DNA of 64,000 nucleotides from Aotearoamyces nothofagi (Eukaryota; Ascomycota; Leotiomycetes; Leotiales; Tympanidaceae): contig JADDTR010000003.1 of NCBI GenBank assembly GCA_015345905.1, positions 310,001 through 374,000 on the forward strand, in the 5' to 3' direction. Below the pieces are notes generated by a model. It worked only from the letters and a program-made list of their open reading frames with translations. It searched no databases and was not told the DNA's origin. Below are positions 33,930-54,357 of the stretch, in pieces (position 1 is the first letter of the stretch; each line of letters opens with the position of its first letter). The position numbers and the translations under genes are program-made.

Positions 33930-34907
33930 CTATAGCTCATCCATTCTCAAACCTGCATGTCGAAAGTGGCCCTGGGCACTTTGTTCCCGTTCTCCAACTA
34001 CGTCAATGCACCAATTCAAAAACTGTTCAAAGCCTTGGTTTGGATTGGCTTTGTAAACTTGCCAATTCCGTTTAATGAATGCTTTTAATTCCGCAAAGAA
34101 TTCTTCGATCGGATTAAGATCTGGAGAGTATGGTGGCAAATAGACCAGTTTTACCCCAGCATCAGTATACATCTGCACGATTCGATCTGTATGATGAAAG
34201 GATGCATTATCTATCACCAGCACTGACTTCGGCTCTGGCCACCTACTATATAACGGTAGCAATTGCTGGATAAAATCCTCAAAGAATTCGCTGTCTGTTG
34301 TACCTTAGAAGATACGACTTAAAATAATCCCAGCCACTGTATATACTGGCAGTATTTGGTATCGTTGCTCACGTTGAAATCGAGCGATTTGAACAGGTGT
34401 TGTTCCACTGGGGGACCAGCCATTCCGCCGGAAACCAATACGTTTGTCGCAGCCGGATTCATCTACAAAGACAAAATGCTCGGGGGAGAGACTTGAAATT
34501 TGGTACAGATAATGGTCATGCAGATCTGCATTCCGTCCATTTGCAATACGACGGATTTGCTTCTTAGTCCAGCCCCTCGAACGTAGTGCTCTTCCAATAC
34601 TAGAAGCTGTTACAAGGACATCGAACTCGTCTGCCAGAAAGAGTATCATTTCAGACTGATACAGTCCAGGCTTTTCTAGCAAATGTTCACAGAGGGCATC
34701 TAACATGGCAGGTGTGATGCTTCGCTTTCGCCCTCCGCCATTGTGAGGGGCTTGAGGGGCGCCATAGTATTGAATGTTTGAGCGGATCCTTCGCACGCCG
34801 CGAGTACTACAGTTAGCTGCCGTTGCGATTTCAGAATTAGTAAAAGATCCTCTTGAGAGCATGCCAGTGATTAAAGCAACTTGCGACTTCGCAAGACGTG
34901 GCGCCAT
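33930..34907 (-). mobile_element. IS630/Tc1-mariner type DDE transposase with one in-frame stop
   Basis: One frame of 326 codons, from ATG 34907 to the stop at 33930, broken once by TAA at 34305-34307 (RIF*GTTDSEFFEDF), most simply a mutated CAA. The N-terminal half is a homeodomain-like helix-turn-helix region (GSFTNSEIATAANCSTRGVRR, then the GRPR-like GGGRKRSITPAM). The DDE_3 catalytic core shows the first Asp in FVFVDESGCDKR, the second in VLVIDNASFHH, and the last acidic residue in PPYSPDLNPIEEFFAELK, spaced as in DD34E-type enzymes. I could not find convincing terminal inverted repeats on either side, so the element's outer ends are not defined. With the stop it should not be self-mobile. 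Confidence 0.9.
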
Positions 34908-35189
34908 TTCTGGGTGCTGCCTGTTGTTGAGCAGGAAGAGGTGTCGTACGCAGCGTACCTCAAATTACCAGAACCCAATGCCGCGACTGGCAACCTGAGG
35001 CCACACCGCGGCAGGAGGACCGGGGATGATTGAGGCTCCTACCGTACTACTGGTAGTGGCTCGGGACGGGAAAACTATATTCCTCAGGCGGGGTAATTTC
35101 CGCTTGCTGATTGCCGACGACAACATCAATAACAACAACAGAATGCTACCTCCCTTCTCGTGTAGCTTGTCCAACATCAACTCCCTATC

Positions 35190-51800: not shown

Positions 51801-52087
51801 CCATAGTATATTAGGAATTGGAATACATCAATAAAAAAGATCGCTAAATATATTTAACTTATAGGGGTATGAAAATTAAATATAGAAGACTTGCACAAAT
51901 ACTTTCTCGGTATTAATATTCACGAGATCATAAAACAATATCAGCTACTATCTAATCTTCATATAACAAATGTCTCATCAAGTTCTAATTTCTAACCATC
52001 GTTTCATATTCATCTATTGCCAGTCACTGTAAACCCAAGCAGTATTTACTTCTATACCTACCTGATCATTGAAAGGGCGAATATGTA
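48852..52087. other. 3.2-kb intergenic region
   Basis: The left part is the promoter of the C2H2 gene. A 10-bp minisatellite lies at 50328-50388. A 189-codon open frame on the minus strand (51631 to 51062) and an opposite 94-codon frame over the same bases are unrecognised; neither shows a known motif and I do not call them. From about 51.66 to 52.02 kb the DNA turns AT-rich. No repeat family is recognised there. Confidence 0.5.
50328..50388. repeat. 10-bp minisatellite (CACACGCCTC)n
   Basis: Six units, one CACGCCTCATA variant, in non-coding DNA. Confidence 0.85.
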
Positions 52088-54357
52088 TCATTGCTCCATG
52101 ATGACTGCTAAGCCTTTCCAGAAATCACACCTATCCAATTCGTCATCTGTGACAATCTCCATATCCGTAGCATTGGTCTCTAGCACGATCCTTTTCTTCT
52201 CCTGTCCAAAAGCGTCCCAGCTAGGCGCACTGGAGGACTTGTAACGATTTGGGTTTAGATCTCTGACAAACGAGATAAAGTAGCCCATCAACACTGGCAC
52301 AATGGGCGCATTATACGTCTCGAAGCTTGATCCAATGCCGCCTGCGAACCCGACACCAAATACCGCCGGGGTCTCAAAGGTGTGCGGAACACCAAGTCCC
52401 GCCGCGATATTGTCGGCATCTTGGACATTGAAGCGATATGACCAGATTTCGTTTGGAGATGAATTATCTCTATAAGACTGAGCAATGCTAATACCAGGAC
52501 ATATGAACGTGCTTTCGCCGTACGCAGCGGCTACAGATGGAAAGTAGCTGGCGTGAGCGGGAAGAGGAGCCATGAGCGGGTACATGGCATTGATCTCATT
52601 AGTGTGATTTGTCGTCAGATGAGGATAATTGTCGACCAAAAATGTTGCGACTTCTTCAGAAGATGTAGCATCATCTACAAAGTATGTCCCTTGTACACTG
52701 CAGTCAGTACCAATTTGAGGGGTCCGGGTTCAAGGGACATATCATTTGTATCGGCTCCAACCATGATTGGAACTTTGACCACTTTTCCTTCCATCAAGGA
52801 TACGTAGGAGTGGTCTTGGAGAAAATTGCCATCTATACAAGGCGTGAAGTAGAATCTGGGTGGGTTCGTTCGGCCTGGGTACGAGGAAGGTATGTTGGCA
52901 GCTTGAAGAGCAACCGTGTCTTTCTCTCGTAAGCATGCCAGTTCATCTTTCAACCCAGAACATCCGACATTGCTTGCAAACAGATCAAACTGCCACTCTA
53001 GTTCGGAGATCTGTGGTTGCGTTGGAAAGAATACCGATTCACCGATAGCCCCATGGAACAACCCATCATCTCGGCCACCATAAGCAGTGAGATGTAAAGC
53101 CAAAGATCCTGCACCAGCACTAACACCATGCGCAACTACACGATTTGGGTCGCCGCCGAACTACTAAATATGTCAGCATCATTTCAGAGCCCTGCGCTGA
53201 AATGCATCAAGAGTGTTCACAATGAGAGGTGGTCAGCTGTCTAAAACGTAGATTGCCTGGGAAAACCTGTTTCATACGGTTATAAACAAGGATATGGGTA
53301 TTAACTTCCACATACGACCATAGATTCAAGAGAACTGGGCATCCCGTCCGCTCTGCCTTACATAAGCTTGAAATCGGCAGATTAGTAGTTGGGTGGGTGA
53401 CCACCAGCGAATACCTGCTGTTGTATGTTTTTTTTGCTCCTCCCCTTTCTTTTTGGTGGGGCGTTCTCCTCATCCTCTTAAATCTTGCCGTACAATTACA
53501 CTTGCATATCATTTTGCCAACTCGTTTCGAGTTGTGGCATTGGTCAAGAGATTGAATTGCGGATGAAGAGAACCAATAGCGAAAGTTGGCCAAAGGCGAA
53601 GTGCCGGGACATGGGTAATTAAAGAAAAGACCAAACTGACACGAAATATATGTTGTTGAACCCATTCAAGAGCTTTCCTTTGATCTAGAAGCCCTACATT
53701 GAGCTCGCCATTCTGTTTGATCTTGCTACTGGCTAGAAATCCATACGCACCAACCCGATAATTAAAGTTGACGAAGATTATATTTCTGTCAGATTTCTCA
53801 ACAACTTCTGAGCCATTATAGTTCTCATTTGTTTCAGTGAGATAGCCTGCGTTTCAATAAGATTAGAGTACAGTAGTTGAGAATTTTAGACTGCTTACCT
53901 CCCCCTGGTATGAAAACCCATACTGGCAGCTTCGAATCAGCTGTGGCGTTAGCAGGGGCCCAGACATTGAGATACAGACAGTCTTCTGATTCTGTCCTTG
54001 AGGGATACTCTGAAAGAAAGCCAAGGCATATTGGACCAAACTAGGATAGTGTTAGGGGGATTTGATATTGGGCATAGAACCATCACATACAGCGGTAGCG
54101 TCTATAATCCCCTTACGAGGTACTGGATCCTCAGGCTTCCTCCAACGCAAATCGCCAAGAGGCGGTGCTGCATACCTTATACCCAGGTATTGGTTAACAT
54201 CGTTTGACAAAGGGGTACCTTGGTATGTCGAGTATCCTAGATTGACTCGTGCAGAGTCGGAATGTAGAGTCCCCACGCGTCCGACATCGCGTGACGACGG
54301 CAACAGGAATAACGCAGCAGCAATGGCCGCTATAACCGAAAACACGAAGCTGTACAT
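52088..54357 (-). CDS. Secreted type-B carboxylesterase/lipase, probably damaged
   Basis: Five exons: 54357-54091, 54040-53899, 53846-53641, 53160-52743 and 52689-52088 (544 residues if the last intron is removed). A signal peptide, [19 protein letters not shown], starts the protein. Family blocks follow: [35 protein letters not shown] (oxyanion hole), [12 protein letters not shown], and [17 protein letters not shown] across the third intron. The nucleophile elbow is GVSAGAG (Ser about 219; usually GESAGG), and the C-terminal histidine is in [12 protein letters not shown]. Two things are odd. The third intron is 480 bp and contains a 5S rRNA gene on the opposite strand. The last intron keeps a branch point (TACTGAC) and an ACAAG acceptor, but its donor is ATATGT instead of GTATGT, and the catalytic acid usually found in a DEGT motif is not visible at that joint. 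The gene may therefore be a recent pseudogene. Confidence 0.8.
53310..53429 (+). rRNA. 5S ribosomal RNA gene inside a carboxylesterase intron
   Basis: A 120-base match to fungal 5S rRNA. It starts ACATACGACCATAG, has the GAACTGGGCATCCCGTCCGC block and the GGCAGATTAGTAGTTGGGTG and GGTGACCACCAGCGAAT internal control segments, and ends TGTTGTATGTTT so that the two ends pair. A T-run directly after (53428-53436) is a Pol III terminator. Two segments differ from the usual sequence, ATTCAAG near 53322 and CTTGAAAT near 53367, and they are complementary to each other, so helix pairing is kept. Dispersed single 5S genes are normal in Pezizomycotina. This copy lies antisense within the third intron (53161-53640) of the esterase gene. 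Confidence 0.93.
53428..53436 (+). terminator. Pol III oligo-T terminator of the 5S gene
   Basis: An uninterrupted T run immediately after the 5S 3' end. Confidence 0.8.

Follow-up and report, generated by a model that had tools for sequence, protein, structure and literature searches.

Does a 5S rRNA gene that lies antisense within an intron of a protein-coding gene represent a working gene, and by what route did it come to be there? The question arises from a 64-kb stretch of DNA, termed here in its entirety the window, in which inspection of the letters without database searches (the sequence-only reading) placed a 5S gene on the opposite strand within an unusually long intron of a carboxylesterase gene. 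The interpretation that we consider probable, on the evidence of sequence, is that of a dispersed and likely functional 5S gene, one sequence type among several, that, in a filamentous ascomycete, occupies the third intron of an EstA-like esterase gene in antisense orientation. The evidence for the host intron and for the nested gene is given first, followed by the alternatives concerning the state of the 5S copy and the origin of the intron.

The esterase gene, its long intron and the nested 5S gene

The esterase gene is located on the minus strand, and the structure predicted for it was assembled by combining splice motifs with an alignment of the protein. Exon 1, which includes the start codon, and exon 2 were placed by the combined splice and protein model at 54091-54357 and 53899-54040, respectively. 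Exon 3 (53641-53846), which ends in HIFR, and exon 4 (52739-53160), which begins with FGGDP, were defined by the gene model together with the alignment to the structure 1ukc, and exon 5 (52088-52697), which includes the stop codon, was assigned by the gene model. The modeled spliced product comprises 548 amino acids with no internal stops and matched the Pfam family COesterase with a score of 320.5 bits. Its best match in the PDB was EstA (1ukc; 606 bits), which we take to be from Aspergillus niger, and the product resembles this EstA-type carboxylesterase over residues 32-547. This match, together with that of the CYP51 encoded elsewhere in the window (see below), suggests that the host is a filamentous ascomycete.

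Intron 3 is 480 nt in length, lies in phase 0 and extends from 53161 to 53640 on the minus strand. These limits, which emerge from the splice motifs and the 1ukc alignment, coincide exactly with those proposed in the sequence-only reading. The donor GTCAGT is situated at 53640-53635, a branch-like CTGAC occupies 53176-53172, and position 53161 is the last of the acceptor TAG. The alignment to 1ukc is free of gaps at the HIFR/FGGDP junction, and in the unspliced form several stops would interrupt the esterase frame. Thus, with a donor, a branch-like site, an acceptor and a restored reading frame, the segment 53161-53640 is, as judged from its sequence signals, a spliceosomal intron. The remaining three introns in the gene model are 50, 52, and 41 nt long, and the earlier estimate that intron 3 is about ten times the length of the others is borne out. 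The shortest of these, intron 4 (52738-52698, minus strand), has a weak donor, GTCCCT, combined with an intron-like 3′ end (CTGAC, CAG). As the frame shifts unless these 41 nt are removed, the insert would represent an unusual intron, or else the esterase gene carries a lesion here. Inspection by eye also revealed that exon 3 and intron 3 each have an ACATAT-T-rich stretch at their end, probably by chance.

The identity of the nested gene was assessed by a covariance-model scan of the 64 kb with cmscan. The 5S rRNA family RF00001 matched at 53310-53429 on the plus strand with 77.7 bits against a cut-off of 38 (E-value 9.5e-15), covering model positions 1-120 of 120, and was the sole match in the window that exceeded the cut-off of its family. 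Weak matches to SNORD88 and sR42/43 were far below their respective cut-offs and were set aside. The sequence-only reading had described a 120-base 5S gene, antisense to the esterase and furnished with its internal control region and a T-run terminator, and each of these elements was recovered. The gene is full length at 120 nt and opposes the minus-strand esterase, its internal control region is contained in the full-length RF00001 match, and a run of eight T residues (T8; 53428-53435, plus strand) after the 5S 3′ end is a candidate Pol III terminator. A TATA-like box, TATAAA, occupies 53281-53286 on the plus strand and begins at position −29 of the gene; fungal 5S genes use a TATA-like box of this kind. 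The 5S unit from the TATA-like box through the terminator measures 155 nt. The TATAAA element, the internal region and T8 are therefore all present as Pol III gene signals, a statement that concerns the signals and not activity. A stretch within the 5S gene, TTAGTAGTTGGGTGG, resembles the acceptor and FGGD codons of the opposite strand (15 nt, 87%), but the likeness is near chance and was rejected, with a 20-nt version being matched by 11 of 300 shuffles.

Base pairing and the state of the 5S copy

A 31-base core of the window 5S was compared with a collection of prokaryote genomes, in which it matched two stretches, both in a single MAG (G001), and with a collection of viral contigs, in which it produced no matches. 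Ascomycete-type 5S was noted on NYXK01000238.1 and NYXK01000105.1 in the MAG titled Deltaproteobacteria bacterium isolate CPC1. G001 also contains a bacterial LSU-5S-tRNA locus and apparently is a mixed bin. In view of the 5S type and of broken esterase frames, the contigs in G001 that bear window-type 5S are probably fungal contamination.

A full 5S gene on contig C109 of this MAG (52011-52130; 69.2 bits) is 90% identical to the window 5S over 125 nt, and a box similar to that of the window gene, TTTAAATA, begins at position −30 of this gene. A second copy, interrupted by the end of contig C237, is 96% identical over 96 nt, and a relic on contig C96 (L017:1501-1531) comprises the first 31 nt only, with 84% identity. 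The RF00001 search of G001, in which 150 of 307 candidates were scored, gave two matches of which one was the bacterial locus; as the copy at the C237 end is not among these, 5S counts in the MAG are lower bounds. When viewed by eye and without gene prediction, the C109 gene is positioned between open reading frames, and at the end of C237 an open reading frame is followed by the 5S copy, settings that fit single dispersed 5S genes. It also was noticed by eye that the helix II 5′ strand of the C96 relic, TGAGG, is complementary to CCTCA, the 3′ strand in the C237 copy, which hints at a third helix II type.

The window and C109 genes differ at 13 sites, and the distribution of these changes with respect to the 5S secondary structure was analyzed. 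Among the 34 pairs in the model, six lack standard pairing in the window and C109 genes alike and were excluded from the count. Each of the 28 standard pairs in the window 5S also is standard in the C109 gene. Four pairs (18-61, 19-60, 21-58, and 69-108) were changed on both sides and retained standard pairing, and pair 20-59 underwent a one-sided change from A-U to G-U that likewise is standard. When 13 changes were placed at random, four or more double-changed pairs arose in one of 200,000 trials, and all 28 pairs were kept in 0.2% of trials. When the partners in a three-row alignment were displaced by one to three columns, zero or one double-changed pair resulted, compared to the four observed. 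A shuffle control was equaled by 21 of 500 shuffles, although with three rows only this is a weak control. The fold predicted from the single window sequence was unexceptional (z −1.39; 21 of 200 shuffles as good), and the value for the C109 gene was z −1.27. Overall, we interpret the paired changes as a sign of selection on the fold in this lineage of 5S genes, with the present activity of the window copy being a separate matter. As a comparison of two genes, the analysis leaves the lineage in which the paired changes occurred undefined, and the same pattern is expected of a copy that died recently.

The principal alternative is precisely such a copy, a young duplicate that is silent or recently dead, untranscribed, and carried passively in the intron. 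Pseudogenes are common among the 5S copies of fungi: in one source, which cites Rooney and Ward (2005), 5S genes in filamentous fungi are described as subject to birth-and-death evolution with 18-83% pseudogenes (PMC5555474). The truncated relic on C96 illustrates decay among the relatives, and the differences between the window and C109 genes also are compatible with this scenario. However, the window gene is full length, its 28 standard pairs are undamaged, and both the TATA-like box and T8 are intact, and we regard a silent copy as a serious but clearly less probable explanation. A working gene is suggested instead by TATAAA at −29, by T8, and by differences from the C109 gene that preserve pairing.

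If the window 5S is a working gene, the following sequence of events may be proposed. A segment of DNA that included the 5S gene and some flanking sequence would have been copied into the esterase locus. TFIIIA, TFIIIC, and TFIIIB would assemble on the internal region of the 5S gene and on the TATA-like box, and Pol III would read the plus strand from 53310 and halt at T8. Pol II would traverse the 5S gene from the opposite side during transcription of the esterase, and splicing would remove the antisense 5S stretch from the esterase mRNA. The roles of the two polymerases and of the named factors are those established for 5S genes. From the anatomy of the locus, head-on encounters between Pol III and Pol II would be expected at the nested gene. 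Removal of the intron by splicing, rather than mutual regulation of the 5S and esterase genes, may be what makes the arrangement tolerable.

The geometry of opposed transcription in one unit by itself brings to mind such regulation, in which Pol III transcription or bound factors would hinder Pol II and the output of esterase would track ribosome-making activity. However, no evidence for this nesting from conservation or expression was found and the fold predicted for intron 3 is unremarkable (z −1.59, matched by 10 of 100 shuffles), which makes a regulatory function improbable. As the fold of intron 3 is ordinary, no special folding aid to its splicing is proposed.

Origin of the long intron

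The sequence-only reading had offered two origins, namely that the 5S copy enlarged an existing intron or that the insertion itself became an intron. Esterase relatives in G001 bear on this choice. Ten matches were detected on seven contigs, six of which cover the intron 3 junction, whereas the seventh, C76, matches residues 101-155 only and stops short of it. An intron at the HIFR/FGGDP site is missing in all six relatives that span the junction. The junction-crossing segments are 29-51% identical to the window esterase and, as relatives this distant are of limited guidance, the pattern only mildly favors a young intron 3. No esterase relatives were present in the viral contig collection, the neighboring gene Stk19 had no match in G001, and an orthologue of the esterase gene was obtained from neither collection. 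Insertion of a 5S-bearing segment in an esterase exon that instantly behaved as an intron, such that the Pol III gene arrived and was neutralized by splicing in a single step, is conceivable but rather unlikely.

In either version, enlargement by the 5S copy is an incomplete account since the 5S unit contributes 155 nt to an intron with ~430 extra nt. When the unit is subtracted, 325-354 nt of intron 3 are left. The donor-side remainder (53437-53640, minus strand) carries an imperfect inverted repeat (53463-53475 and 53561-53573; 13 nt, 92%), and the acceptor-side remainder (53161-53309, minus strand) contains the TATA-like box of the 5S gene. A near-direct repeat of 11 nt (53290-53300 and 53607-53617; 91%) also is present in the intron. 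At E ≤ 1, the rest of the window contained no further copy of any part of intron 3, the intron 3 flanks had no convincing match in G001 (best E-values 1.29 and 3.29), and no clear target-site duplication was seen. The remainder being without a convincing match, the segment that brought the 5S gene was larger than the 5S unit, or else the intron was extended in successive steps. The best reading of these data is that a dispersed 5S isotype arrived together with flanking DNA. Residence of the 5S gene within a mobile unit, such as a 5S-derived SINE or similar element, whose insertion created or enlarged the intron might account for the unexplained remainder and for its two repeats, but the repeats are short and of a kind that arises by chance and neither a second copy in the window nor a convincing match for the flanks in G001 was detected, which renders this the most implausible of the explanations considered.

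Dispersed 5S genes in other fungi and further genes in the window

Dispersed 5S rRNA genes of the Neurospora type were reportedly described by Selker et al. in 1981. The window gene resembles this type in standing alone, apart from the main rDNA repeat, and in belonging to a class with divergent copies that preserve pairing. It differs in its antisense location in an intron of a protein gene. According to the respective sources, fungal 5S genes may be dispersed and usually number 50 to 200 (PMC5555474), dispersed 5S genes total 116 in Yarrowia lipolytica and 30 in Blastobotrys adeninivorans (PMC4022394), Yarrowia has tRNA-5S fusions in addition to dispersed 5S genes (PMC2911113), and 5S genes are present in fission-yeast centromeres (PMC10085805). 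The window 5S is probably akin to those of Y. lipolytica and B. adeninivorans in that single genes are scattered over the genome, but unlike the Yarrowia fusions it has no fused tRNA; no tRNA genes were detected in the 64-kb window by ARAGORN or Rfam. No description of intronic or nested 5S genes was found in the literature searched, which included few subscription papers and is weak evidence of absence. Dispersed fungal 5S genes therefore are already known, and the window copy is a well-formed nested example.

If the copy is active, the locus would be a clean natural case of a Pol III gene that is tolerated within a Pol II unit. The helix II sequence of the window 5S is its own, and its RNA would be traceable among other 5S types. 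With orthologues in hand, the locus could also serve to test whether insertion of a dispersed RNA gene can give rise to an intron. If the 5S gene, as part of a large scattered set, simply came to lie in an intron by chance, the case is an ordinary one.

Two observations concern other genes in the window. An open frame at 34305-34964 on the minus strand is by eye like a Tc1/mariner-like transposase, and in Pfam produced only a sub-threshold match to HTH_32 (23.6 bits versus 33.7). The best PDB chains for the CYP51 encoded in the window are 4uyl, 5frb, and 6cr2, presumably from Aspergillus fumigatus, and two of these are named CYP51B.
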